A DNA stretch of 45,300 bases. Source: a virus. Of the stretch, positions 273 to 42,607 are shown one piece after another; positions within the stretch are counted from its first letter, which is position 1; the number at the start of each line of letters is the position of its first letter. The DNA is taken from positions 1 to 45,300 of IMG/VR virus record IMGVR_UViG_3300025000_000174, one strand, 5' to 3'. The position numbers and the translations under genes were made by a program. Under the pieces are notes generated by a model. That model made no database searches. It worked only from the letters and a program-made list of their open reading frames with translations, and had not been told where the DNA came from.

Positions 273-1043
273 TTACCAGTTCCGGTAGATTAATTCCTGC
301 CTGCCTTTGCCCTTGCCGCCGCCTCCGATCGTGTAGTCGATCTTAACCGTGTCCATCTTGAACCCGCCGAATATCTTTCTCATCACCGGGTGGTCGTTGA
401 TGGTGAGGATGGCGCCACCCTTCATCGTCCGCATCGCCTCGGCAATCTTTCCATATTCTTCCAGCTCGAACGGGACTCCGTACCCCTCGGTTTCGTAGTA
501 CGGCGGGTCCATGAAATGCAGCGTGTAGTCCCGGTCGTATCGCTTCAGACATTGCTCCCAGGGAAGGTTCTCGATCCATACCCGGGCAAGCCGGAGATGG
601 GCCTGGCTGAGGTCCTCCTCGAGGCGCAAGATATTAAAACGGGGCGGTGAGCTGGGTGAGATGCCGAAGGTCTGGCTGCTCACTTTGCTGCCGAAGGACA
701 GCTTCTGCAGGTACAGAAAACGGGCGGCACGCTGGATGTCGGTAAGGACCTCCGGGGGAGTCCCTTTGTGCCACTCGAACAGTTGTCGGCTCGACAGGGC
801 AAATTTGAACTGCCGGATAAATTCTTCGAGGTGGTTTTTAACGACCCTGTAAAGATTCATTAACTCAATATTCACGTCGTTTAAAACCTCCACCTCAGCC
901 GGCTGCCGGAGGAAGAACATCGAGCCGCCGCCGGTAAATTCTTCTACGTAACAGGTGTGCGGCCGGGCCTGGATCATCGGCAGCAGAACTTTCGCCAGAC
1001 GGCGTTTGCCGCCGGGCCAGGCGAGTATCGGATAATGCTTCAT
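273..1043 (-). CDS. DNA adenine-N6 methyltransferase, D12 class (Dam-like)
   Basis: This 256-aa protein has the D12-class layout: N-terminal WPGGKRR (about 9-15), the AdoMet-binding FTGGGSMFF (36-44) and the catalytic DPPY (179-182). The family transfers a methyl group from S-adenosylmethionine to N6 of adenine in short duplex sites; the exact site is not predictable here, though GATC is common for D12 enzymes. It is the last sizeable gene of the late end, the place where Mu carries the DNA-modifying mom gene, so a role in protecting phage DNA from host restriction is a reasonable inference. No clear Shine-Dalgarno sequence is seen before the ATG. The 147-bp gap upstream (1044-1190) holds no convincing gene. 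Confidence 0.9.
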   Translation of the reverse strand: MKHYPILAWPGGKRRLAKVLLPMIQARPHTCYVEEFTGGGSMFFLRQPAEVEVLNDVNIELMNLYRVVKNHLEEFIRQFKFALSSRQLFEWHKGTPPEVLTDIQRAARFLYLQKLSFGSKVSSQTFGISPSSPPRFNILRLEEDLSQAHLRLARVWIENLPWEQCLKRYDRDYTLHFMDPPYYETEGYGVPFELEEYGKIAEAMRTMKGGAILTINDHPVMRKIFGGFKMDTVKIDYTIGGGGKGKGRQELIYRNW

Positions 1044-1190: not shown

Positions 1191-2018
1191 CTATAGTATC
1201 TCCTCCACTTCGAACCCCACCGCATTGTGATTCACGTAGGGGAACTCTATCGTCGACAGCTGGCGCAGGGTACAGAGGAAGGCCCGCTGCTTGAGCCTCT
1301 TCCCGACGTCCTCCGGATCGAACACAAACAGGACCTCCCGATCGATGCCCCGGTCCCACTGCATATCTAATATGTCGTCGAACGCTTCCGCTTCAGTCAC
1401 TTTGAGAGTAAAGCGCTGCACCCGCCGCGGCTCCTTGCGGTCGGGATAATCTACCCCGCCTCTGCTCCGTTTTTTGGTGGTGTCAGTCTCGATCCCGATA
1501 GCGGCACCATTCCGGAGCATGTTGATTTCCGGTTGAAACGCCGGCATGAAGATCGCCCGGGCCAACTCCACATAGCCAGCCGGGTTTGCCGTATCCAGGA
1601 TCTCCGTCCTCCAGTAACGAGCGGTCTGATCGGAAGGGAGGATGAGGGGGAAGTCGTCCTGATATCGCTTCTTGTCCTCGGCTGCCGGGTATCCCTCCGG
1701 CCAGACAGCCAGAGCAGTGGAATCCCACACGAGGTTGGTGTAGCCGGCATCGGAATAGCCGCTTAACTGGACTGTGGCGTCGGCTGAAAAGTTGTGCCGC
1801 ATGAGGTTAACGGCGCGGATCGTCCGGGCGACGCCCAGGTCGGCATCGAATTTGGTGGAAGCTGCCAGGGCATTCGTCGATCGTGCTTTCGCCGAAAGCA
1901 GCGGGTTCTTTAAGTTTGTGATCGGCAGCGTGCCCAACCACGAGCCACTTGAAAGCACTGTGGAGTACGATGCCGAGTCGAGCAGCCGGTCCGGATATGC
2001 AAGGATAACGTTACCCAT
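1191..2018 (-). CDS. Distal tail (tail-tip) protein
   Basis: This 275-aa protein follows the Kelch-bearing tail-tip gene with one base between stop and start, and is the last structural gene. The N-terminal half (about 40-150) alternates short beta strands with phrases such as RTIRAVNLMRHNFSADATVQL and ends in a YWRTEI segment. This pattern is typical of galactose-binding-like jelly-roll modules in tail-tip and fibre proteins. The C-terminal part (VEFDD-like, LFVFDPEDVGKR) is probably a small beta domain. Its role in receptor contact or tip assembly comes from position. No catalytic motif is visible. Confidence 0.65.
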   Translation of the reverse strand: MGNVILAYPDRLLDSASYSTVLSSGSWLGTLPITNLKNPLLSAKARSTNALAASTKFDADLGVARTIRAVNLMRHNFSADATVQLSGYSDAGYTNLVWDSTALAVWPEGYPAAEDKKRYQDDFPLILPSDQTARYWRTEILDTANPAGYVELARAIFMPAFQPEINMLRNGAAIGIETDTTKKRSRGGVDYPDRKEPRRVQRFTLKVTEAEAFDDILDMQWDRGIDREVLFVFDPEDVGKRLKQRAFLCTLRQLSTIEFPYVNHNAVGFEVEEIL

Positions 2019-2019
2019 G

Positions 2020-4470
2020 TCAGCCCCACACGTACAAGGTTATGGTGTCTTCGGCCAGATTCACCTCCGCACCGACGATACGCATGTATTTGGATGAGTT
2101 GTAGTTGAAGCGGTTGGTGGCGAGCTTGACCACCTTGTTGCGGGACCAGATGTGGGCGAGATCGTTAGGGTTATCGTTATGACGAAATATGTAGGTATTT
2201 TCTGTCGCGGTTCCGCTTTGCCCACCAATAACATATATGGAACTAGATGACATAACTACTGAATGCAATGATCGTATTGTCGGTAAATCAGAAATGCCTG
2301 CATCGTCCCATGAGCTGTTGGGACGACTAAGATTTAATCGAACTACTGATGAAGAAGAAGTCTCTCCATCCACTGATCCTCCAATCATGTATAGGTAAGG
2401 GGCATAAATACAGGAAGTTTTGCCACCTTGGTTAAATCGGGTAGCCGGCAAATCCGTTACTCCCGCATCATCCCATACACCAGTGGGATTGCTTAAATCT
2501 AGCCTGATGACACTGTTCAACGCTGTTACTCCGGTTTTACCACCCGATATGTATACATAATTTTCGTAAACATCCGCATTATGCATTGTTCGGGTAGCCG
2601 GCAAATCCGTCACGCCAGCATCATCCCATGCACCAGTGGGGTTGCTTAAATCTAACCTGATGACGGATGCGGTTGGAGCAGAACCTCCAGAAGTAAAGCC
2701 GCCGAATACATACAGATGATCATTGTAAATACAGGATGCATGGAGGTTTGCCTCTCTAGGCATATCGGTAACTCCCGCATCATCCCATACACCAGTGGGG
2801 TTGCTTAAATCTAGCCTGATGACGGAGCTTTTGTTGTATCCACCTACAACATATAGATATCCGTTATGAACGTGGGCAGAATGTTGATACCGGGTAGCCG
2901 GCAAATCCGTTACACCCGCATCATCCCATGCGCCAGTGGGATTATTTAAATCTAACCTGATTACAGATGCGGTCGGAGCGCTTAAGTATCCACCGATAAC
3001 GTATAAAAAATTGCCATGGACCACCGTCGCAGTTTTTGTCCGGCGAACAGATAAATCAGAAATAGCCTCATTATCCCAGTATCCGGCCACATCATAGAGC
3101 AGCTGGGTTCGCGGCACTGTGACCTTCAGATAATCCCGCCGCGTTCCGAACAGGACCTGCAGTCGTTCAGCTTCAGTTTTCGCCGCGGCTGCATCAACCA
3201 TCGGCGTATTGACATTGAGCTCTGACGCCAGAAGGTGCGCAGTCTTTACCGTTGCATCGGGGGCCGTGACAGTCCGGTACTGTTGGTTTAACCATTGCCG
3301 ACGGGCATCAGTAACGCCGGCAGCGAGATCGCTGGTCTGTACGGTGTCGTTCTTGGCGTAATTGAGGTTGACCTGCCACACCGGGACTCCGCGCCCCGTA
3401 TCGTTGGTGGCAAGACGTTCCATTCCAAGGATTTTGGAATCGTCTATGGTCGTGATCGCCGTGGTGCCGGGAAGTTCTAAACGTCGGATGCAGAACTTGC
3501 CCATATTCTCGAAGCCGTACCAGGCATCAGGGGAACACAGTTCATCGAGCACCGCGGCATAGGTGGTTTCAGTGGAAATGTAGATACCGACCTCGGCAGC
3601 ATTCGCCTTATCGAGATCAATAAATCCTTGTTCAATGCAGTCTGAGGCCGCTATTGGTATCTGCACGATCTGCTTGATGATTTGCGCTTTGGTACGGTTA
3701 GCTGCTGCCGCACCCTGGACGCCATCGGCAGTCACCTGGCCGGCCGGGGAGCTACCGAGACGGAAACAGCCGCCAGCGAGCCACGCCCGATATGTTCCAG
3801 CAGCCGGAGCGTTCGTCTCCATATCGGTCTGATCGGTGTAGTCGGTGCCCTTGCTCAGGGCTACACCCCTGTCATACACGTTGGGGATATCGTTTAAGGC
3901 GATATCCGACATCTGGTAAATCAGGCGGGACGTGTTGACAAGAACCGGCGTAACGTTATAACGGACGCCATACAGTCGTGGCTTCGGCTTGCCCTTTATA
4001 TCCTCAACGCCTTCAAGGCCGGCGGGGAGGGTATTGTTACCGAGGTACTTTGTCGGCTGAAACGGTACGTCCAGTTCGGCCTTGCGGTCACGAATCCGGA
4101 TCGATACCTGGTCGAGAGACGGCAGCGGTTGCTCCATGGTGCCGATCAAAAACGGGGCCAGACCATTCGGGGTGATCTCGGCGGCAATGATCTCTCTGCC
4201 GTCCAGACCGTAATCGATCAGATAATCGAGCTGGCCGATGTTGTTGATGAGGATGATGGCTCCGTACCCGGTGGACGCCGGTCCACTCAATTTCCCGTTC
4301 GAATACATCTGGAAAGTGAACACTCCGGGATTTTCCAGCAACGGCTCGTAATACTGATTAGCCGGGGCGTCGGCAGGACCGGAGGTGTAGCCGTTGGTGG
4401 AGAAATAGAGCGTTACCTCGGAGGCCGTGCCGGGATCATACGCCTTTATGATGACCGCGTACTCTGCCAT
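2020..4470 (-). CDS. Tail-tip/hub protein with an inserted six-repeat Kelch propeller
   Basis: The 816-aa protein starts at an ATG overlapping the tape-measure stop (TAATG). Residues 1-464 look like a tail-hub scaffold (IRIRDRKAELDVPFQPTKYLG, then a PRLYGVRYNVTPVL segment). Residues 465-770 hold six Kelch-like repeats of about 47-56 residues, each with WDDAGV(T/S)DLP, a Y(V/M)xGG turn and SVIRLDLSNPTG. Residues 771-816 (HIWSRNKVVKLA... to TLYVWG) resume a segment that fits the end of the hub domain, so the propeller looks like an insertion in a loop. Kelch propellers bind proteins or glycans, making a receptor-binding role plausible. The Kelch DNA is visibly more AT-rich than the flanks, suggesting separate acquisition. 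Confidence 0.82.
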   Translation of the reverse strand: MAEYAVIIKAYDPGTASEVTLYFSTNGYTSGPADAPANQYYEPLLENPGVFTFQMYSNGKLSGPASTGYGAIILINNIGQLDYLIDYGLDGREIIAAEITPNGLAPFLIGTMEQPLPSLDQVSIRIRDRKAELDVPFQPTKYLGNNTLPAGLEGVEDIKGKPKPRLYGVRYNVTPVLVNTSRLIYQMSDIALNDIPNVYDRGVALSKGTDYTDQTDMETNAPAAGTYRAWLAGGCFRLGSSPAGQVTADGVQGAAAANRTKAQIIKQIVQIPIAASDCIEQGFIDLDKANAAEVGIYISTETTYAAVLDELCSPDAWYGFENMGKFCIRRLELPGTTAITTIDDSKILGMERLATNDTGRGVPVWQVNLNYAKNDTVQTSDLAAGVTDARRQWLNQQYRTVTAPDATVKTAHLLASELNVNTPMVDAAAAKTEAERLQVLFGTRRDYLKVTVPRTQLLYDVAGYWDNEAISDLSVRRTKTATVVHGNFLYVIGGYLSAPTASVIRLDLNNPTGAWDDAGVTDLPATRYQHSAHVHNGYLYVVGGYNKSSVIRLDLSNPTGVWDDAGVTDMPREANLHASCIYNDHLYVFGGFTSGGSAPTASVIRLDLSNPTGAWDDAGVTDLPATRTMHNADVYENYVYISGGKTGVTALNSVIRLDLSNPTGVWDDAGVTDLPATRFNQGGKTSCIYAPYLYMIGGSVDGETSSSSVVRLNLSRPNSSWDDAGISDLPTIRSLHSVVMSSSSIYVIGGQSGTATENTYIFRHNDNPNDLAHIWSRNKVVKLATNRFNYNSSKYMRIVGAEVNLAEDTITLYVWG
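2283..3090 (-). repeat. DNA repeats encoding the Kelch blades
   Basis: Four copies of an approximately 65-74 bp block are nearly identical: 2439-2511, 2591-2664, 2761-2824 and 2891-2964. Diverged copies lie near 2283-2345 and 3047-3085. Spacing is about 130-170 bp. They encode the LDLSNPTG-(A/V)WDDAGVTDLPATR junctions, while the sequence between them varies. Such conserved ends with variable middles could recombine to gain, lose or swap blades. Confidence 0.85.
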
Positions 4471-7400
4471 TATGCCGCGTTCTCCAGGATCGCCTTGGTT
4501 TGTGCCCCGGCAAGCCGAGCTTCAACTGCTGCCAGTTTCGCAATCAGTTGCCGGTTCGCCTCGCCCTGGAGGCGAACCAGGGCGCGGAGTTCGGTGACCG
4601 CGTTTTTCAGTTCGGCGACGGTTTCTCCATTATCGCCGGCAATAGCTGCCCGGGTTTCAGTGGCGGTGTAGACCCTCCCAGGAGCACTAAAGTTAACGAG
4701 TTCAGGTCCTTCCTCTCCCACCAGTGCCCATCCCGGGAGGGCAAACCCACCGACTGCGTATTGCGGCACAAAGGTACGACTATTTATTCCAGCCAGGGCA
4801 GCTTCGTAGATTGAGCGAGCGTATTCCTCCATCTTAGAAATATAGACGTCCGTGTGCCTGTGCAGGAACAGGACCACGTCGTTAGCATCTACTATGCCGT
4901 TCGGATTGGGTTGGTAGCTTATATTGTCAACCACAGGGGCAATGTCGTATCTCGCGTCATACTGACCGCTGTTGCTCAACTGCTGGGCTTTAACCGCGTC
5001 ATCCATCGAAGACTGTGCCTGAGATTGGATGGTCGCCAGGGCCTGTTCGTAGGTCTGCTTTGCATTTAGGATGTCAGTAGCCTTCTGCTGCTCGAACAGC
5101 GCCCGCTCCTGAGCTTCCTGCTGTGCCCGGAGCACTGCCAGCCTTGCTTCCGCATCGGCCTGCAGGTACTGCTCTAACAGCACGGTCACGCCGGAGTTTT
5201 CGCCGAGAATGCCCTTGAGGTAAGAAGCGCTCTCGATATTGCCATCCACGATCGATTCCTGGATCTTCTTCAGGTTCTCCAGCTGCTGCTGGGCCACATC
5301 GATCTGGATCTGTGTGTCGCTCGGCAGTCCACCGAGGAGGGCCAGGGCCTGGGTGACTTCGGCGAAGTCGGACGCGTAGCCGGGGCCGCTGGCGTTGTAG
5401 GAACGGGAGGACTGCAGGAACGTCTGGGCCAGGGCGCTGACCTGTTGCATGGCGTCCACGTCCCCCAGCTTCGCCCGACCAAAGGTGGCGCGGAACGCTG
5501 AACCGCTCTGTTGATATTTCGCTTCCGGAGAGAGGGTGGAAAGGTCCCCGCCGAGCACGTTCTTCAGCGTCTCCATGATATTGATCTGGGCAGCAACGGC
5601 GGCGGATAGCTTGTCACGGAGGTTATCGGCGGCAATGGTCAGTTCGGTGCTCGCCTGGCTCAATGTTTCAGCAGCCTCCTTTGCCGCCTCCGCGTATTCC
5701 AGTTGCTGCACCTGGAGGAGCTTTGACGTGTCGAGGCCGCGTCTTACATAATCCTCATATTCATCCTGCTGCTGGTTGACGAGATCGAGCAGATCAGCCA
5801 TGGTGCCCTTGCCGGTGACGCGCAGGTACCGGCTTTCTATATCGCGAGTGGATTCGCGCTGCTGCTCGGCAAGCTCTGCCGTATAATCCTGCACCAGGGC
5901 GAACGCTTCGGATACGTCCATCAGGGAAGCAAAGAGTGCCCGGCCGCGTTCGGTGGAGAGGTTCAGGGAATCAACGATAGAGATGAAACCCGCCTTTGTG
6001 GCGGGCACGGAGAGGTTCATCTCGGCAAAAGCAACACTGACCTCACGGGCGGCTGCTGCGGCACGCCTGCGTTCTTGTTCCTCGTCGCTGAACATGGATT
6101 CGAAATAGGTTGCAACACTGTCCTGCATATTCTCCAGGCCGCCCATGAGTTCAACCAACTGGTAGGCGGCGTTGGCGCCTCGCAAGGTCGAATCGATCAG
6201 CCTGGCGCCGATCATATCGAGGTTTTCATTCACGCCCTGGAGCGAGGTTGCCAACCTGATAGCGGAATTGAACGCCGATTCCCCATAAAAAGTGAACTGC
6301 TCAAGACCCTGCACCGTTTGGCCGATTGCATCCGCGGCTTTCGTGTACCACGCTTCCAGGTCCTTGGCGATATCCTCGGCGCTGCGTCCGGATGTCTGGA
6401 TCTTGGTTGCCGGCAAGTTCGCTGCTGAAATGTCGGCGGTTGTACCCATGGCAACGGCGGAACGGATGACAGTGGCGATAATCTTCTGAAGGTCGGCGTC
6501 GAGGCTGTCGGTGACGCCTGAATCGACTCCGAAATAATTGGTGCCGCTCTTGCCACTGCGGAACAGTCCGCCTTTACGTGCCCAATCGCGGTAGCCCATG
6601 GCATCCAGCTGCCCACCCTCGATGCCGAGCGAGAGGCCGAGCCCGGTTTCATGGGTGCCGCCGCCAAACAAACCGCGCGTGACAGGATCGAAGGCCATCG
6701 CCATCTTCCAGCCGCCGGACCAGCTGCTAAATAGTTGCTTGGCGCTGGCGGATGGATCGATCAGCGTGTTAGCAGAGACGGAATTGCGCTCTATGGCCGA
6801 TGACGGTAAAGTTCCGGCGACCATTGAGCCACGGGTACCTTCCCCAAACAAATCGGCGATACTCGTAAGCCCATCGGCAACCCGACCAATGGCAAGGCTG
6901 GCGTTATCGGCTGCAGCAGCCAACTGCTGGAGGGAGTCTTGTGTCTGAGTGTCGTGAATGGATCGTGTGGGACCGCCGATGGAGGAACCTACCGAGCCAC
7001 TACCCCCAGTGCCAGATATATATCCGGCGGAGACACCGCCTACCGAACCGCCGCCGCCGTAATTGGTGGATGCGATCTTGGCTACCTGCCAAGCACCCAT
7101 TAATCCGACCGCCACAGCTCTACCCCATGCTGCCGGCGTCCAGCCGTCTGGGCCAGCCGTTTGGGCCATTACCGAGGCTGCAGTATTCATTACGGCCGAA
7201 CCCATAGCAAACAACTTACTGGACTCAAAGCCGCTTCGTGAGCTTGTGTCCATTGCATTAGCCATCTGACCAAGAATGTCACTATAAAATCCAAGGCTAT
7301 CTCGCCATAGCGACCATTTGATGTTCGCCGTATCCCGAGTTTCATTTATGTCGAGCTGATTGAGGGTCTTAATGGCTTTAATCTGCTCGCTGCTGCCCTC

Positions 7401-9644
7401 CTTCATATATTTCAGGTTCTCTTTAATCAGCTGCTTTTCCCTGCTGTAACGTGCCTCCATGAATGCAATCTGCTGCTCGTATGGGTCCTTGATGCCGGCT
7501 ATTTGCAGGTCTTCAAGCTTATAATCCACCCCGGCTCTGAGTTGCTGTTGAAGGGTCTGCATAGCTGCTTTTAACTTGTCAGCACTACCCGCTCCCTGAT
7601 CCAGCATCTTTTGCAGGGTTTCAAGATCAATGTTAAGTTTGTCAATTTCGGCCGTCGGCTGCAGCGACTGCACCCACTTCAGTTCTTCTTCCCAGCGCAG
7701 GTTCATTTCGCCGGCCGGGTTGTGCTGCGGGGTTTCCGACTCGGCGACCCGGAGGTAGTCCCTGAACTGGTCAGAGGTGTCCTTGATAGCCTGCTTCAGG
7801 TTGTGCAGGTTGGTGATGTTCTGAATATGCAGTTGATGGTTACGCTGTAGCTCAGCACGATGCTCCGGGTACAATGTGATAAGCCACTTGAATCGCTCGC
7901 CTACCCCCCACAATGCTTTTTCCAAATCGGTTAAGCCTGGGGTCTCTTGTATTTGCAGTTGAATGCGCTCGTCCTGGAGACGGTTGTATTCCCGGACGTA
8001 TTCGTTCTGCCGCTTGATTGCCTCGTTGTAGGCGTCGATGTCTTCGGTGGGAGGGGCAGACGGGGTGGTGTCGATTCCCAGCTCCTTTTTCATCCCTGCA
8101 GAGAGGGGGACGCCGCCCTCTTTGTACATGAAAAGGGATTTCTGCTTTTGGAACTCCCACGCCTTATCGGCCTCGGCTGCTCGTTTCAGCTCTTCACGGT
8201 AAGCGGCCTCGCCGGTGAGGTTGAGTTCGGTGTATTTGTGGATCAGTTCATCCAGGGCGGAAACGGCCGGCTTGGCCGCCATGTAGAATGCCACTCCGAT
8301 GCCGGCAGCCCATGCCGCAGGATTGACGGCCATCGAGGCGGCGATCGCGGCGGTCAGGCCGGTAAAGGCGGCAGACAGCGCCGCAACTCCGCCGACGGCA
8401 TAATACGCGCCTACTGCCAACGGGGTGAGCAGCCCGGGGACCTGGCCGAGGAAGTCGATCAGCTCGCCGGTCGCCTGTCCCAATCCTTTAATAAGTAGAA
8501 TCTGGTCGCCAATCCCCAACCCCTGAATAATGGAACCAATCACAGCAACCGCTGCACCTAAATCTTCCACATGGTCAGACAAAAATATAATCCCGTCTGC
8601 AAGACGTGCGGATAGCCCATAGGCTTGGTCGACAGAGCCTATATACCGGCCAAAAGAGTTTTTCATGACAATGAACGATTGTTCCACCGTCTTCGACATT
8701 TTGTCGAAATCCCGGTCGATCGCGTCGCTCTGGGAAAGCAGGGCCTGGGCTACCGCTTCGGCGGTGAGTTCGCCTTCCTCCCCCATCTTGCGAAGTTCGC
8801 CGATCGTTTTGCCCATCCCCTTGGCAATCGCTTCGGCGAGTCGGGGCGCCTGCTCCATGACCGAGTTGAGCTCTTCGCCACGCAGGGCACCGGAAGCGAA
8901 CGCCTGACCCAGCTGGACAAGGGCGGCCTCGGCGGAGGCGGCGCTGCCGCCGGAGACGACGACGCTCTTGTTGATGGATTCGGTGATCCGGAGAAGATCC
9001 TGCTGGCTGAGCTCGAGCTCTTTGGATGAGCGGGCCATGCGGGCGTAGATTTCGACCGTGCTGAGGTTGGCGCTGCGCGTGTCCTGGGAGAGATCGAAAA
9101 GGCGTTCCTGGACGGCGGCGAGTTCGTTGCTGTTGTCCGTGACGAGCTTGATGCGGCTGGCGATCTGGGTCTGGGTGTCGGCGGCTTTTGACAAACCGTA
9201 CAAGCCTGCCACTACGATACCGACCGCCATGCCGATATTCATCAGCCGCATCTGCAGGTCCCACAGGCCTTTTTCGAAAGCGGTCATGCCACCTTGGGCA
9301 GACCTGGTGCTTGCGGCAATGGTGCCCATGTTCCGCGAATGCTCGGCGGCCATGCGGCCGGTGGACGCGGATACCGAGGTTGCCATCCGCCCGGTGGCGG
9401 CGGTGGTTTCATCCATGCGCCCGACATAGACTTTGTGGCTTTCCGCCATACGGCCGGCGCTCGCCTGAACATCCTGGGCCATGCGGCCGGTGGCGACGGC
9501 GGACTTCTCCATGCGGCCGGTGGCGGATTCGACGCCCTGCCCCATCTTGGTGGCAGCGGCGTCGACTTTCTCCATACCCTGGACGGCGTACTGGACGCCG
9601 TCCACTTCGAAGATGAGTTTGAGTTTGGAGGATTTGTCAGCCAT
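4470..9644 (-). CDS. Tail tape-measure protein
   Basis: At 1724 aa this is the longest gene and sits between tail chaperones and tail tip, as tape measures do. Residues 40-98 contain six GRM tripeptides spaced 10-11 residues apart, suggesting a repeated helical segment. Residues about 125-330 match the tape-measure N-terminal domain (LWDLQMRLMNIGMAVG, ALVQLGQAFASGALRGEELNSV, GELTAEAVAQAL). Hydrophobic stretches near 355-460 probably form the membrane-interacting region. Glycine-rich and coiled-coil stretches follow (about 890-930, 1290-1560), and the C terminus (FALPGWALVGEEGPELVNFS) is a motif seen at tape-measure ends. It sets tail length and helps DNA entry. The start is supported by GGGAG before the ATG. 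Confidence 0.93.
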   Translation of the reverse strand: MADKSSKLKLIFEVDGVQYAVQGMEKVDAAATKMGQGVESATGRMEKSAVATGRMAQDVQASAGRMAESHKVYVGRMDETTAATGRMATSVSASTGRMAAEHSRNMGTIAASTRSAQGGMTAFEKGLWDLQMRLMNIGMAVGIVVAGLYGLSKAADTQTQIASRIKLVTDNSNELAAVQERLFDLSQDTRSANLSTVEIYARMARSSKELELSQQDLLRITESINKSVVVSGGSAASAEAALVQLGQAFASGALRGEELNSVMEQAPRLAEAIAKGMGKTIGELRKMGEEGELTAEAVAQALLSQSDAIDRDFDKMSKTVEQSFIVMKNSFGRYIGSVDQAYGLSARLADGIIFLSDHVEDLGAAVAVIGSIIQGLGIGDQILLIKGLGQATGELIDFLGQVPGLLTPLAVGAYYAVGGVAALSAAFTGLTAAIAASMAVNPAAWAAGIGVAFYMAAKPAVSALDELIHKYTELNLTGEAAYREELKRAAEADKAWEFQKQKSLFMYKEGGVPLSAGMKKELGIDTTPSAPPTEDIDAYNEAIKRQNEYVREYNRLQDERIQLQIQETPGLTDLEKALWGVGERFKWLITLYPEHRAELQRNHQLHIQNITNLHNLKQAIKDTSDQFRDYLRVAESETPQHNPAGEMNLRWEEELKWVQSLQPTAEIDKLNIDLETLQKMLDQGAGSADKLKAAMQTLQQQLRAGVDYKLEDLQIAGIKDPYEQQIAFMEARYSREKQLIKENLKYMKEGSSEQIKAIKTLNQLDINETRDTANIKWSLWRDSLGFYSDILGQMANAMDTSSRSGFESSKLFAMGSAVMNTAASVMAQTAGPDGWTPAAWGRAVAVGLMGAWQVAKIASTNYGGGGSVGGVSAGYISGTGGSGSVGSSIGGPTRSIHDTQTQDSLQQLAAAADNASLAIGRVADGLTSIADLFGEGTRGSMVAGTLPSSAIERNSVSANTLIDPSASAKQLFSSWSGGWKMAMAFDPVTRGLFGGGTHETGLGLSLGIEGGQLDAMGYRDWARKGGLFRSGKSGTNYFGVDSGVTDSLDADLQKIIATVIRSAVAMGTTADISAANLPATKIQTSGRSAEDIAKDLEAWYTKAADAIGQTVQGLEQFTFYGESAFNSAIRLATSLQGVNENLDMIGARLIDSTLRGANAAYQLVELMGGLENMQDSVATYFESMFSDEEQERRRAAAAAREVSVAFAEMNLSVPATKAGFISIVDSLNLSTERGRALFASLMDVSEAFALVQDYTAELAEQQRESTRDIESRYLRVTGKGTMADLLDLVNQQQDEYEDYVRRGLDTSKLLQVQQLEYAEAAKEAAETLSQASTELTIAADNLRDKLSAAVAAQINIMETLKNVLGGDLSTLSPEAKYQQSGSAFRATFGRAKLGDVDAMQQVSALAQTFLQSSRSYNASGPGYASDFAEVTQALALLGGLPSDTQIQIDVAQQQLENLKKIQESIVDGNIESASYLKGILGENSGVTVLLEQYLQADAEARLAVLRAQQEAQERALFEQQKATDILNAKQTYEQALATIQSQAQSSMDDAVKAQQLSNSGQYDARYDIAPVVDNISYQPNPNGIVDANDVVLFLHRHTDVYISKMEEYARSIYEAALAGINSRTFVPQYAVGGFALPGWALVGEEGPELVNFSAPGRVYTATETRAAIAGDNGETVAELKNAVTELRALVRLQGEANRQLIAKLAAVEARLAGAQTKAILENAA

Positions 9645-24444: not shown

Positions 24445-27165
24445 TTAATGGAAAATCCTGGAGCGGAATATCTTTTGCCAGATTGAGGTGCGGCTACTGG
24501 ATACTGCCGGGGCGATCGCCCCCAAGTAATTCATGCCGAAACCTGCCACTATCGCGGCCGATCCGGTCAATGGGGTAAAATCGGTTGTCGATGTGTATTT
24601 AGGATCACCAGTCAGTAACCCATCCTCGATAGTGATGGAGTCGGTGAACGTACCGGTCGCCGTGTTGAACCGGGCAATGTCTATACCCGCCGTTATGGTG
24701 TTAGTACCATCCGACAGGCTCACTTCCGCTTCCATGATGATAAATTTGTATGTAGTTGGGTTCGTGACTATATCAGGCGTACCTGACAGAGCGAACGCCC
24801 CCGCACGATTAAGGTTTGTTACCAAAGTCAATTCTGTTGCCGTGTTGTTCTGGATGTATGCCGGGATGGTTGTGGTGCCGTTGGTCAGCAATACCAGCTT
24901 CCCACGCAGTTGTTTGCCGGTAGTAGGCCAACCGGCGGCTGTTACAGTTATTTTTGACCCGAGGGCTACGCCGGTATTTGCAGCCGTGGCAACGGTACCC
25001 TGAGCCAGCCCGCTGGCGTTGAGCAACGATACCGCCGTGCCGCCCCCCCATGAAAGCGTTGCAGCATAGTCGGCGCCGATGGTTCCGGAGGAGATGAGTT
25101 GCAGGTTTTTAGCGGCAACCGGAAACGAGGTATACGAGGGGTTCCAGATCGATACCCCAGCAATGTTTTTGACCGTGGCAGGGAGGTTATACTCATCGGC
25201 GCCGATCTTGGGGATGCACTGCCGGAACGTTGAGGGAGTCGTGAAATTGTATTCCAGGTTTTTCGCCAGCCGCCCTATGTTGAACTTGTTCTGCATGGTG
25301 GTTGTGGTCGCAGGGTCGCGGCGGACGCCATAGCCGATATTACTGACGATGTTGTTGTAGATTTGGACATTAGTGCCATAGACAACTCCGGATTCTCCTT
25401 CGTCACCAAGTAAAATTGACCTGCGGCCCGAATTAAAGGTGTTGTTCCGAACCACCAGTGAGTCGGACCAGGTGTGCATGTTATAGCCGACTGTGATACC
25501 TCCAGGCATATCGTTGTTGTCAGTGTCGTACAGGATATTGTTTTCGATGAGAATGTTAGTTATGTAGCCGCTTAATCTGCCGACAACTATGCCGTGATGG
25601 GCACACTGGGAAATTACATTGTTGCGTATGATTACGTTGGAACTCACCACAGCGGCACGATTGTTATATTTAACGGTGTTGTACTCATAAACAAATGGGT
25701 GTCCGGTAGTCCCTTCGCCTGACAATCCCCGCGAATCCATGAAACCCGCCCCGCCTAACGACAGGAGCGTGTTATATGACACCAGGTTGTCTGCTCCGTC
25801 CGGCAGATAACCCTGTGTCATAGCGTTGCCAGTGTTGTAGGACATGGTCAGATCGTGCAGTGGATAGGTCCCGGAAATCCGATCATTCATAACCATGACG
25901 GACCCAACATGCCAATCGTTATAGGAGAAGTCTATGTGGCCGGTGTCATTGGCAAACGCGCCGATGCCTATCATTGCCCTGTTAAAATTATTGGCTGCGT
26001 AGTGAGTCAGGCAGGCATTAAATGTGTTGTACCGAAGTTTGATCTTTTCAGCAGCACTACCGAAGGAATCATAGATTTGCACCGGGTGATAACAATGGGT
26101 GAATGTGCTATGCTCGACTCTTGTTTCGCGTGTGGCATCAACCGCCGCCGACCGCTTATACCGCAGCCCTAACGACGTGTTTCCCGTGAACTCCTTGTCA
26201 TACTGGTTTGCCCCCATATAGGAAAAATCGCAGTAGTCAAAAACTGCGCTAGAGTCAGCAGCGTTGTTGTTGCTGACTATACCCCAGCCGTAGAACGACA
26301 AATACTTGTAGGTGATGTTCAGGTCTCCGGAAGTCATTCCTGAACCTATGATCTTATGGAATAAAATACCTAGCCGATGGTCGATAAAGTAATCTCCGTG
26401 ATTGGCAAGTTCAGCTAGGCTGGATTTTATGGTGGTAATTGCCCCTGTAGGATTAGTTACCGAGTTGATGACTGCCGAGGTATCCAGCCCGCTTCCCAGG
26501 CCATTACCGGCAGCATTGCTGATGATCCTGTTTTCCTGCCCTCCGGTCAGGTTGCTAAGCCCAATCCCATTTATAGAGTTTACCTGCCCTGACGGCAGCC
26601 AGCCGGTAACATACGCGCCGAGCGCGGTTATGGTGCCATGTGCGCCGGTGTAGGTGACAGTCACCGAGTTATCCCATTTAACATTGGCTGATGGGACGGA
26701 AAATGTTATCCGGCTGTTGGCTGTACCGATAGCTGATATGTGTCCGTTGTTTTGGATTAGGGATTGCCCGTCTGATGCCAGGTCGCCAAGAATGATCGCC
26801 CCAGCTTGCGGCTGCAACATGGCATAACGGTTTATCAACATCATTGTGTTGTTTGCAGTGTCGTAGCCGCGCAGCGTGAGGGTTATTCCCGCAGCTACTA
26901 TCAGCTTGCCATACGTGGCGGCATTGGTTGCCTGAATGGTGATGGCATGACCTACAGCCGCTGCATTGCTGCCGACAATGGTGTTTTCGTCAACCGTGAC
27001 CGTGTGTCCGGTGGCTATTACTGCGGTGTCGCCTGCGACTGGTTTTGCGCCGCCTGCCCATGTCGAGGTTGCCGACCAATTGCCGGATTGCGCGGAGGTG
27101 ATGGCGGCGCCCCAGGCGGGGGCGGAGAGAACGAATAGGATGATGGCGGTAAATAGTGTTTTCAT
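24445..27165 (-). CDS. Large exported G8/beta-helix protein
   Basis: The 906-aa product begins MKTLFTAIILFVLSAPAWGA, a clear signal peptide. Residues 21-60 (SGNWSATSTWAGGAKPVAGDT, then AVIATGHTVTVDEN) match the start of G8-type domains. The middle (about 340-660) is a parallel beta-helix rich in NNxI, RNNVIS and IENNILYDTDNN turns, as in pectate-lyase-like depolymerases. The final part (about 700-906) has beta-sandwich-like repeats. A phage fibre should not need Sec export, so it may be a surface or secreted factor made by the lysogen, or an acquired host gene. DNA here is more AT-rich than the head genes. AGGAGAATC precedes the ATG. Confidence 0.72.
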   Translation of the reverse strand: MKTLFTAIILFVLSAPAWGAAITSAQSGNWSATSTWAGGAKPVAGDTAVIATGHTVTVDENTIVGSNAAAVGHAITIQATNAATYGKLIVAAGITLTLRGYDTANNTMMLINRYAMLQPQAGAIILGDLASDGQSLIQNNGHISAIGTANSRITFSVPSANVKWDNSVTVTYTGAHGTITALGAYVTGWLPSGQVNSINGIGLSNLTGGQENRIISNAAGNGLGSGLDTSAVINSVTNPTGAITTIKSSLAELANHGDYFIDHRLGILFHKIIGSGMTSGDLNITYKYLSFYGWGIVSNNNAADSSAVFDYCDFSYMGANQYDKEFTGNTSLGLRYKRSAAVDATRETRVEHSTFTHCYHPVQIYDSFGSAAEKIKLRYNTFNACLTHYAANNFNRAMIGIGAFANDTGHIDFSYNDWHVGSVMVMNDRISGTYPLHDLTMSYNTGNAMTQGYLPDGADNLVSYNTLLSLGGAGFMDSRGLSGEGTTGHPFVYEYNTVKYNNRAAVVSSNVIIRNNVISQCAHHGIVVGRLSGYITNILIENNILYDTDNNDMPGGITVGYNMHTWSDSLVVRNNTFNSGRRSILLGDEGESGVVYGTNVQIYNNIVSNIGYGVRRDPATTTTMQNKFNIGRLAKNLEYNFTTPSTFRQCIPKIGADEYNLPATVKNIAGVSIWNPSYTSFPVAAKNLQLISSGTIGADYAATLSWGGGTAVSLLNASGLAQGTVATAANTGVALGSKITVTAAGWPTTGKQLRGKLVLLTNGTTTIPAYIQNNTATELTLVTNLNRAGAFALSGTPDIVTNPTTYKFIIMEAEVSLSDGTNTITAGIDIARFNTATGTFTDSITIEDGLLTGDPKYTSTTDFTPLTGSAAIVAGFGMNYLGAIAPAVSSSRTSIWQKIFRSRIFH

Positions 27166-30110: not shown

Positions 30111-31449
30111 GGGCGGCGGATGAGCGGCTAAGGTTGATTCAGTATTGCTATGGGCCTTTCAGGCCCAAAAGGCTTTAAACCCGCGCAAAGTCAAAACCCT
30201 AGAACCATTTGCAGTGGTTCCGCCGTATCAGCCACATCATCTTCCCATCCGACTCCAATGTAAGTAAGTACTTCGCCCCATCCCATGTCATACATCCAAA
30301 AACGCCACTCCTTGTAATTCGAATCCCTCAATCTGTCGAACCTGTGGGGCCTTTTCTCGATATGTATTCCGAAGCCGCACATGTTGCAGCCGGTACGCTT
30401 CGCCTTCGTGGTTTCCAGTGTGCCGTCAGGCTGTTCTTTAATCTCGCCGTAAATCTCTGGGACTGGCACTTCCAGTTCCAGGGCCAGACGGAGAAGATCG
30501 TCACGCTGAAAAATGGCGAACGGGCAGGATCTCTGCACGGTTTTCCCATAGTAGTTGCAGCCATTTTTTACTAGGGCATACCGCCGCTGTCCCCCCTCGC
30601 TGGCCATCAGTCCCATAAACGGTTTCAGCTTGTTGGCCTTAGCCCAATCATCGGCGGGCTTTTCCTTCATGTGGTAGCAGCATTCCGCCGAGACCTTGAA
30701 CGGTGCCGTCTGATAATTTGTTCCGTACTTCTCGTTTTCCGGTCCGCCAAACAGATTTAGCCATTTCTGCGGCAGACGCATCCGAGATCCGGTCTCTTTG
30801 GTTTTCCATCCGCCATATGCCCCGGTTTCGCCAGTAATGATCGCGTGCCGCACCGTGGCGTTCTTCTCTGTCGGGTTTTGCAGGAGGTGAATCTTACTGG
30901 CTTTCTCCTTGCTAATTACCGGGTATCCGCATTCCTTAACCACCTGAACCATGCTCTTGTACGGTTTCAGTAGCTCCATGTTCGGGAGGCTCTGGTGTAT
31001 CCGCTGAATGCTTTTGTCCTCCAGGGTCGAAACCGAGACACCAACAATGTCAGCACTTACGAACTTGCGGAGCAAAGTAATCAACACGAGGCTGTCCAGT
31101 CCACCAACTGAGCAGAACACTTGTCCCTTCATTTCCTCGTAAAACTCCTTGGCTTTGCAGATGGCCCATGTTTTTTTTCACGTCGTATGGCAGGGCTTGC
31201 AGTTCCATGAACTTCTTTGGGTCCATAGTCAAAATCCTTTATGGCCTTCGGCCAGCGCGGGTTTAAAACCAAAAGGCCCGCAATACTGAATCAACCCCAA
31301 CGTCCTGTTGTTCGTTGCTTCCGCCCTCAACTCCGATCTCGTTCATTGAAGGAGAATTGCATTTCACTTCGTCACCCGCGCGACGATGCGGAACCAACGG
31401 ATCGAGTCAGTCCCCCGCAAGCGGGGGGCCGCTCATCCGCCGCCCCGTT
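30107..31449. repeat. Cassette bounded by nested inverted repeats
   Basis: Outer repeat: 22 bp at 30107-30128 is the exact inverse of 31428-31449. Middle repeat: GGTTGATTCAGTATTGC at 30132-30148 is inverted at 31280-31296. Inner repeat: TTTAAACCCGCGC at 30174-30186 is inverted at 31255-31267. All three flank the PAPS-reductase-like gene. The right arm has about 130 extra bases between middle and outer repeats, including CCCCCGCAAGCGGGGG. The outer repeat on the right abuts the stop codon of the next gene. No transposase lies inside. Confidence 0.9.
30191..31226 (-). pseudogene. PAPS-reductase/DndC-like protein, frameshifted at an A8 run
   Basis: The first frame runs from ATG 31226 (MDPKKFMELQALPYDVK). 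At an A8 run (31171-31178) removal of one A would join it to KTWAICKAKEFYEEMKGQV and the long open frame ending at 30191, about 345 aa. The second part has the PP-loop CSVGGLDSLV, then a CCYHMKEKPADDW pair of Cys, RSCPF and TGCNMCGFG, suggesting an Fe-S or zinc site. This matches the ATP-pyrophosphatase/PAPS-reductase superfamily, which includes sulfur-transfer enzymes (CysH, DndC). Substrate unknown. The shift may be a mutation, polymerase slippage or a read error. It sits inside the inverted-repeat cassette. Confidence 0.72.
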
Positions 31450-40279: not shown

Positions 40280-42502
40280 TCAGGTGCGCCGCAGGCTGTA
40301 AATGTCCTCGCTGATCCCCTTGAATGCCCGCCATGCCGGCGTCTTCTGAAACGCCTCGTAAAACCTGAATGCTTCGTCCGCAACCTCCAGACCGCCCACT
40401 ATTTGCCCTTCGAGCTGACACCAGAGGCGATATTTTTCACGATCGCCATGGGGAATCTCGAATACCGGTTTGCGCTCGGCTGCCTGGGCCTGCATCCGCT
40501 CCCGGGTGGCGATCGCTGCAGGGGAGACGGTGGGTGCGGCGTTTCGGTTGTCCAGGACGGCGGCGGCTTCGGCGGCGGCCTGCAGCCCGGGGGAGGTGTA
40601 GTCGACGGTCGGGCGCGGGAAGTGGGCGACGTTGGAGGCGGCTGCCTGGCGCTCGCGGTGTTCGAGGACGGCCTGGACGATGTCGACGCCCTTGAGGGCC
40701 TTCTTCGCCTCCTTGGCGTGCGCCCGCATTTCGGCGCGATGCTTGTTCTGCCGGGCGCGGGCGACGGCGGCGGCTTCGGCCCGGGAGATGCCGGTGCGGT
40801 CGGGGTCTTCGGCGATACAGGCGAATTCCCAGACGCCGAAATCGTTCATGCGGTGGACGATGATGCGGCCGAGATCGGCGGGATCGTACATGACCCGTAC
40901 TTCTTTACCGACGAGATCCGCGAGATCGGGATGGATGTAGGTGCCTTTGTCGAGGACGATCCCTTTTTTCTGGACGGTAGGTAGCTTGCCGCGGCGCTTG
41001 GGGGCTTCGGCAAGCAGCACATCGAGAGCGCGTTCGTCGCTGATGCGGTGGATGGCGTGCGGCCACCCGGCCAGGACCTGGTTGGGAGACATGCCGAGGC
41101 TGGAATGTCGGGTGTCGTGATAGGCGGCGCACCATCTGTCGCAGAAGGCCTGGAGGTCTTCGCCGGTCATCTTGATCTCGATGACCGCTTCCGGATCCCG
41201 GAGGCGCTGCGCGAAACTTTTGCGTGCTTCGATGGCTTTGCGATCGGCGACGCTGTGGCCGCAGTAGCCGGGAAGCAGTTCGACCAGGTCGTGGGAGAAG
41301 GTGCCGAAGCCGCGCTCTATGAAAGGTTTTTCATCGCCGGAGAAAGGCCGGCAGAAGTGCTGCCGGATGTCCAGATCGCCCATGACCCGCTGAAAATGGT
41401 CGCTCTTGTAGGGGTTGCCGTTGTCCGTGGACAGGGTGCCCTTGGCGGGGACTCCCCAGGCGATGAGGGCGCGGCGCACGGTGGCGGCGTTGTCGGTGGC
41501 CCGCTCGGTCCTCGTCACCTGGAAGATCAGGCGGCGGGTGCCGACGTCGCAGATGCCGATGATCTTGTGGCGGCCGTCGACAAGGAGCAGATCGGCCGGG
41601 GTAGCGTCGATTTCCCATCGCTGGTTCGGGCCGGTGATGCCTTCCGATCGCGAGCCGAACGCGACCTGATAACGGTTCTTGCAGTCGTCGGGGTTGGTGA
41701 TATGCGCCCATTCTTGCGGGTGGGCCTTCTTCCAGGCTTCCATCCACCGTTCGACGCTTTTGTCGCTGATCCAGGGGGCATCGGCAAGGACGCCGCGCAG
41801 GGATTCGTTGACGTGTTTCGGCTTGATGTGCGGATTGTCGAACATGAGGGCGAGAATGGCGCTGGCCATGGGTCTGACGGGCTCGCCCTTGGCGTCGGTA
41901 CCGGTGATGTAGGTCTCGATCTTGCTCTGCCCCTTGCGGTTGCCGTACAGGTCGGCAAGCCCCATCATGCCGAGCTCGTATTCTTCCGTTATCCAGGTGC
42001 GCAGGGTGGCCACATGGATGGTGCGGATCTCGCCGCGCACCCAGGGTGCCACGTCGGCCCGGCCCATGTTGTATTCGTCGACAAACAGTTCCTGGCCGTT
42101 CGTCCTGGCGAAGCGATTGGCGGTGATGAACGCTTCACAGGCGCGGATGATTTCCAGTTTGGCCTTGGCGCCCTGCTGCTGCCACGGGGGCAGCCGATGG
42201 AAGTCGGTGAGGCTCTGCGCACGGGCTGCGAGGCGGTTGCGCTCCTTTTCCTCGGCTTCGCGCTGCAGCTGCTCGGCGGAGGGGACGGCTCGGAGCTGGA
42301 TGACGTTTTTGCGGTTGAAGTAGACGCGGATGAGCTTGCGTTCCTGGTAGGTGAGGGGGATTTCGTCGATGTCAAATTTGGCGACGCCGCTTTCATTGAC
42401 GGGTTGCCATTGGTTGGTATGCTTCTTCTTGTTAGCGGCCACGCGGCTTATTTTCAGAGCGTTTGCTATTTCGGTGATGGTGGCTGTGATTTGCTCGCTC
42501 AC
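40280..42502 (-). CDS. DDE transposase (MuA-like)
   Basis: GTG 42502 follows AGGAGGG; the ATG at 42547 lacks this and is less likely. In the 740-aa product the N-terminal part (TEIANALKISRVAANKKK) is an HTH for end binding, followed by a winged-helix region (KSVERWMEAW). The catalytic core has WEID (Asp299), STDNGNP (Asp360) and KPFIERGFGTF (Glu396), with 35 residues between the last two: the DDE triad with DX35E spacing. SLGMSPNQVLAGWP and the C-terminal beta-barrel (RVMYDPADLGRIIVHRM) follow, with a helical tail for contact with the ATPase. It catalyses integration and replicative transposition. Confidence 0.95.
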   Translation of the reverse strand: MSEQITATITEIANALKISRVAANKKKHTNQWQPVNESGVAKFDIDEIPLTYQERKLIRVYFNRKNVIQLRAVPSAEQLQREAEEKERNRLAARAQSLTDFHRLPPWQQQGAKAKLEIIRACEAFITANRFARTNGQELFVDEYNMGRADVAPWVRGEIRTIHVATLRTWITEEYELGMMGLADLYGNRKGQSKIETYITGTDAKGEPVRPMASAILALMFDNPHIKPKHVNESLRGVLADAPWISDKSVERWMEAWKKAHPQEWAHITNPDDCKNRYQVAFGSRSEGITGPNQRWEIDATPADLLLVDGRHKIIGICDVGTRRLIFQVTRTERATDNAATVRRALIAWGVPAKGTLSTDNGNPYKSDHFQRVMGDLDIRQHFCRPFSGDEKPFIERGFGTFSHDLVELLPGYCGHSVADRKAIEARKSFAQRLRDPEAVIEIKMTGEDLQAFCDRWCAAYHDTRHSSLGMSPNQVLAGWPHAIHRISDERALDVLLAEAPKRRGKLPTVQKKGIVLDKGTYIHPDLADLVGKEVRVMYDPADLGRIIVHRMNDFGVWEFACIAEDPDRTGISRAEAAAVARARQNKHRAEMRAHAKEAKKALKGVDIVQAVLEHRERQAAASNVAHFPRPTVDYTSPGLQAAAEAAAVLDNRNAAPTVSPAAIATRERMQAQAAERKPVFEIPHGDREKYRLWCQLEGQIVGGLEVADEAFRFYEAFQKTPAWRAFKGISEDIYSLRRT

Positions 42503-42607
42503 GCGGACCCTCCTGAGAAAAATTTCATTCTGCCGCTTGCATTGCAATTAAATGGTGCTAATGTTTAGCTGTTGGGCTATGGCCTGCGTCGGCCTTTAAA
42601 TAGCTAT

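Follow-up and report, generated by a model that had tools for sequence, protein, structure and literature searches.

A Kelch propeller inserted in the baseplate hub of a Mu-like phage is probably exchanged both whole and blade by blade

The window analysed here is the whole 45.3-kb IMG/VR virus record IMGVR_UViG_3300025000_000174 (positions 1 to 45,300). It is a Mu-like transposable phage: it encodes a transposase with matches to the rve and Mu-transpos_C domains and an adjoining AAA protein, together with head genes, a tail tube protein and a tape measure protein of 1,724 aa, and its tail looks non-contractile. On the minus strand the tape measure gene lies directly upstream of an 816-aa hub gene, with overlapping stop and start, and the hub gene is followed by genes for a 275-aa protein and a D12 DNA methyltransferase, beyond which the record ends. 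The features are as follows:

40280-42547, minus strand: Mu-like transposase
30191-31132, minus strand: phosphoadenosine phosphosulfate reductase-related protein (phrog_424, E 9.4e-19)
24445-27165, minus strand: 906-aa protein, between the lysis and terminase genes
4470-9644, minus strand: tape measure protein (Pfam TMP_3, E 1.5e-63)
2020-4470, minus strand: predicted baseplate hub protein with Kelch insert, 816 aa (open reading frame; phrog_8917; hub fold of the L025 model)
3085-4470, minus strand: hub N-terminal part, residues 1-462 (hub HMM columns 4-464; 94% identity to the relative L001)
2179-3084, minus strand: Kelch propeller insert, residues 463-764 (Pfam, AlphaFold2/Foldseek, alignment with insert-free hubs)
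2929-3078, minus strand: blade 1, residues 465-514 (blade alignment, as for all blades)
2788-2928, minus strand: blade 2, residues 515-561
2629-2787, minus strand: blade 3, residues 562-614
2476-2628, minus strand: blade 4, residues 615-665
2311-2475, minus strand: blade 5, residues 666-720
2179-2310, minus strand: blade 6, residues 721-764
2020-2178, minus strand: hub C-terminal part, residues 765-816 and stop (hub HMM columns 471-509 at residues 778-816)
1191-2018, minus strand: 275-aa protein after the hub gene (phrog_8610; same order in related phages)
273-1043, minus strand: D12 DNA methyltransferase, last gene of the series

The N-terminus of the 906-aa protein resembles a signal peptide and the protein looks beta-helix-like by eye; it matched nothing in Pfam or PHROG, nor anything in eight related records, most of them fragments. 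L002, whose hub is near-identical to that of the window, has a tyrosine-recombinase-like gene (by eye; L002:2513-3748) just downstream of its tail genes, and the two phages perhaps combine a common tail cassette with different integration modules.

Residues 14-461 of the 816-aa protein match phrog_8917 (E 2.2e-91), a phage family of unknown function. Because the window hub folded poorly when predicted from nine sequences (pLDDT <50 over large parts), we instead modelled the insert-free relative L025, to which it is 49% identical, and this model, built with 44 homologues, reached a pLDDT of 93.1 and a pTM of 0.88. Its best solved match in Foldseek was the T5 tail-tip protein pb3 (E 2.3e-21), and others were DT57C, Mu gp44, the archaeal virus HFTV1, a gene transfer agent, T4 gp27, JBD30 and lambda gpJ. 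Since the model matches pb3, gp44, gp27 and these further proteins, the 816-aa protein is predicted to be the baseplate hub that seals the tail tube at its distal end, a protein that is a trimer in known relatives. The sequence-only reading had called it a tail-tip protein, which the model and the place beside the tape measure gene bear out.

The insert carries the Kelch signature (double glycine, conserved tryptophan) and matches Pfam Kelch families above their cut-offs (PF24681, E 1.4e-29; Kelch_1, E 5.8e-27, in five stretches; Kelch_6, in six stretches). AlphaFold2 run on the window protein gave a confident propeller (pLDDT mostly 77-95 across residues 481-750), and Foldseek placed this model with the Kelch domains of LZTR1, KLHL12 and Keap1 (E down to 3.5e-22, TM about 0.8 by target); proteins with this shape are known chiefly in animals. 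Pfam, blade alignment and the predicted structure agree on the six-bladed Kelch propeller recognised from sequence; its span, then put at residues 465-770, is better bounded at 463-764. An HMM of the hub built from insert-free relatives aligned columns 4-464 to residues 3-456 and columns 471-509 to residues 778-816, so that the propeller sits within one C-terminal hub loop with hub sequence continuing beyond it, as had been suspected; judged from its position, this socket is probably in the C-terminal tube domain hdIV. Of the five inter-blade junctions, four are close copies of one another at the DNA level (three are 88-91% identical across 69 nt, the fourth 71-81%) and the intervening loops differ, again as first described. 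The insert is more AT-rich than the hub in the window (45.4% vs. 56.5% GC), but this is no general mark of acquisition: insert and hub stand at 51 and 54% GC in L014, 54 and 52% in L016, 40 and 36% in L017, and 56 and 48% in L019. The AT-richness is lineage-specific and absent in most relatives, and we rejected a recent acquisition judged from it. The insert is not flanked by direct or inverted repeats of the sort that would betray a mobile cassette.

Viral contigs, when scanned, yielded 80 hub loci. About 50 of them are bare hubs, some 510 residues long, that have a short turn where the Kelch socket is; insert-free homologues align across this socket. Nine distinct phages from metagenomes have Kelch at this place (the window, L001/L002, L014/L015, L016, L017, L019, L023, L027 and L101/L102), and pattern-based, non-exhaustive scans found this propeller type in these hubs only. 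In unrooted hub trees computed without the insert, the Kelch-bearing hubs group as one clade (SH-aLRT 93 for eight rows, 86 for nine), so this phage group probably acquired the domain a single time and then inherited it. The idea of an acquired insert is upheld by the insert-free relatives, as what looks like a single older event in the clade followed by replacement, and not as a recent gain by composition. Bacterial genomes, scanned once with the hub and once with the Kelch query, yielded no relatives. The open frame of the L101 Kelch hub (L101:3486-6047) runs upstream into a lipoprotein-like leader, and its start is uncertain.

Relatives also bear inserts of about 220-325 residues in other hub loops, assigned at sequence level and mostly with weak Pfam support: Asp-box/WD-like propellers near column 211-216 (L074, L077, L086, L089 and L091) or near 398 (L033), and, by eye, lectin-like domains near column 35 (L045) and near 250 (L096, on a Pseudomonas juntendi plasmid). 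The L003 hub contains an unrelated propeller-like domain, and L086 (residues 1-556) joins its Asp-box-like propeller to an N-terminal GH39-like domain (E 2.7e-5, just under cut-off). Other departures from the bare hub are an N-terminal extension with many short repeats in the same-family hub L005 (EBPR siphovirus 2 gp72, residues 1-405), a similar extension in L041, and a long collagen-like glycine-repeat stretch that replaces or interrupts the C-terminal part of the L054 hub (residues 401-888).

Comparison of the window with L001 set the propeller apart from the hub around it. The two proteins are 94% identical in the hub (87% at nucleotide level) and 93% in its C-terminal part (91% at nucleotide level; residues 774-816), vs. 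only 47-49% in the Kelch part (47% in the multiple alignment; 53% at nucleotide level). Among identical residues, the codon too is the same in 68% of cases in the hub and 78% at the C-terminal end, vs. 38% in Kelch, about what codon usage alone would give (33-35%). DNA homology reaches approximately residue 475 and picks up again at approximately residue 762, leaving sharp edges. These comparisons indicate that exchange affects the propeller far more rapidly than the hub, and independently of it. The window propeller is indeed more similar to that of L023 (53%) and of L014/L015 (50-51%) than to that of L001 (47%), and the hubs of L023 and L014/L015 are only 42-43% identical to the window hub. 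The Kelch tree did not reject a clade of window and L001 (AU p 0.31), and therefore no donor of the propeller is singled out; donors would be at hand, since different Kelch phages occur in one sample (L001 with L014 in 3300025011, L002 with L017 in 3300025030). With close relatives bearing a different propeller in the same socket, the phage probably changes its adhesion target by swapping the propeller.

Exchange also seems to act on single blades. Between phages, internal blades (2-5) are no more alike at the same position than at different positions (46.2% vs. 46.1%; 139/300 permutations as high), so that positional orthology is lost. Blades resemble others of their own protein more than those of other proteins, in amino acids (49.3 vs. 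46.1%), nucleotides (55.5 vs. 51.0%) and the share of same codons (46.2 vs. 34.7%), an excess that none of 2,000 permutations equalled; the codon measure partly reflects codon usage (in the window 53.4% seen, 41.9% expected), and the amino-acid measure is unaffected by it. The internal blades thus appear to evolve in concert and to act as interchangeable units. Selection toward a common blade consensus could erase the positional signal, but would not alone yield the within-protein excess. L014 and L015 show five differences across 7.0 kb, and three of these cluster in a 5-bp stretch of one junction, where L014 has the sequence of its neighbouring junction; this is likely a conversion tract, although a short-read assembly error could produce the same pattern. 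The blade shuffling foreseen by the sequence-only reading is therefore borne out in these respects and not in copy number, which, compared among the related phages, did not vary: all nine have six blades (42-56 residues each), and we rejected change in blade number as an observed mechanism.

We next consider what the propeller may do. Variability along the blade lies mainly in the a/b segment (1.9 bits) and the b-c loop (1.7), compared with 0.7 at the d-a junction (WDDAGVTDLP). A scaffold bearing a variable, putative binding surface would be expected to show this pattern, and receptor binding by the propeller is plausible. Close bare-hub relatives (L025, L026, L028, L029, L035, L038 and L067) have downstream of the hub a fibre-like gene, the product of which starts with a shared motif (..TDD..TGL.NGGHR.RFV..L). 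No such gene follows the hub in the window, L002 or L014; L016 has a short version and L017 another fibre, and L031 and L037 also lack the gene. With its small numbers and these exceptions, the contrast fits a propeller that has taken over adsorption. One bare-hub sister, L025, possesses a diversity-generating retroelement (DGR), the template and variable repeats of which differ mainly at template adenines and the reverse transcriptase of which matches RVT_1 (E 3e-22):

L025, 6053-6181: variable repeat, inside the gene of a 547-aa fibre
L025, 6602-6730: template repeat
L025, 6845-7510: reverse transcriptase

The window gave no RVT_1 match, and the tested Kelch-hub records, of which several are fragments, contained no reverse transcriptase either; as the window is without this enzyme, we rejected a DGR origin of the propeller diversity.

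Our overall explanation, to which we give a probability of about 0.7, is a hub with a once-gained Kelch insert that contacts the cell surface, its specificity altered by propeller replacement and blade recombination. A six-bladed propeller would have entered one short hub loop in the ancestor of the phage group; the hub core would be kept for assembly, and the propellers would project from the tip (three on each tail, should the hub be trimeric), where most likely they meet the cell surface as the phage adsorbs. Recombination within the conserved flanking sequence could replace the whole propeller by a divergent homologue and so change binding specificity, and recombination between the near-identical inter-blade junctions could homogenise or swap blades inside one propeller, with the number six kept since the ring must close. 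The fold assignments, the site of insertion, the existence of relatives without the insert, the uncoupled divergence of propeller and hub and the lost blade position are results of the analysis; from them we infer the hub trimer, the exposure of the propellers, receptor binding and the routes of recombination.

Several other explanations merit weighing against this one. That the main receptor binder is instead the 275-aa or the 906-aa protein, with the propeller an accessory decoration, is the most serious of them, yet still unlikely: a 275-323-aa protein follows nearly every examined hub with intact downstream sequence and the beta-helix-like 906-aa protein is a possible adhesin, but the former type also accompanies bare hubs, and the latter, with its signal-peptide-like N-terminus, lacks PHROG and Pfam matches and counterparts in the eight related, mostly fragmentary records. 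Somewhat less probable is an enzyme acting on surface glycans in place of a pure binder. Kelch propellers do include galactose-oxidase-, mutarotase- and NanM-like enzymes, the related hub L086 bears its GH39-like domain, and the insert weakly matches NanM (E 1e-7, under cut-off) and a mutarotase family (E 9.9e-10; 38 bits vs. a cut-off of 243); such matches, far under curated cut-offs, are accounted for by the shared Kelch motif, and interchangeable internal blades with variable loops are ill suited to a fixed active site.

Divergence of the propeller in place, under strong diversifying selection and without module exchange, also seems improbable. It would agree with the AU test, which leaves window and L001 as Kelch sisters, but codon agreement falls from 68-78% to near the codon-usage expectation, so that synonymous sites are scrambled as between distant phages, and the edges of divergence coincide with those of the domain; because amino-acid selection in place would leave silent sites unscrambled, we favour replacement by a divergent homologue. 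Lastly, every Kelch-hub sequence comes from a metagenome contig with internal repeats, and the repeats or their variants might be products of assembly. We regard this as very improbable, given frames that are open and full-length, six blades in nine distinct phages, and identical sequence from separate samples (L001/L002 over 1,941 nt, L101/L102 over all 6,882 shared nt).

The window hub with its Kelch insert is a further case of an established pattern, in which tail-hub proteins bear inserted binding domains that can be exchanged. In siphophages of Gram-positive bacteria, the tail-tip proteins called evolved Dit and Tal hold carbohydrate-binding modules in their loops, Tal also in its gp27-like domain (PMC7291167), and there, as here, a conserved core has a loop insert in some relatives and none in others. 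Those modules are small, whereas the window hub, whose fold is closest to T5 pb3 and Mu gp44, bears a 300-residue Kelch propeller and its relatives other propellers, and its family adds several sockets across one hub family and exchange at the level of blades. T5 pb3, lambda gpJ and JBD30 gp53 share the hub fold, and the excerpts of their descriptions mention no propeller in the hub (PMC10038345, PMC10721106, PMC11445458); gpJ is reported to have a beta-sandwich inserted in hdIV (PMC10721106). The bare relatives of the window hub differ in stopping at the hub core, with neither FNIII nor a central fibre. A Kelch protein was identified in the mature virion of jumbo phage CBB (PMC5259590). Kelch propellers of the jumbo phages PhiPA3, EL and PS119XW (BFVD) resemble ours in structure only (about 12-20% identity), and our incomplete literature search on Kelch tail-tip proteins found only jumbo-phage ones, separate proteins as far as described, and none within a hub. 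The receptor-binding protein (RBP) of phage phi11 contains a beta-propeller. It is likewise used in host recognition, the role we propose for the window propeller, but it is a separate protein of other architecture, outside any hub (PMC4901313). DGR systems similarly produce a hypervariable tip protein; the window lacks their reverse transcriptase, and the DGR of L025 acts on a separate fibre.

Going further, and only tentatively, the hub family may be a general chassis with several sockets that exchange propellers and lectins, in which Kelch-blade recombination would be a reverse-transcriptase-free diversification of host recognition replacing the DGR fibre of sister phages. Host recognition determines which bacteria a phage infects, and the candidate for it here, a self-contained propeller, occupies a fixed socket of an essential hub; nature offers swaps of it, sockets left empty and blades that can stand in for one another. 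This system makes it testable how phages shift specificity without rebuilding the tail, and whether recombination between repeats can do the job that reverse-transcriptase systems do in sister phages.
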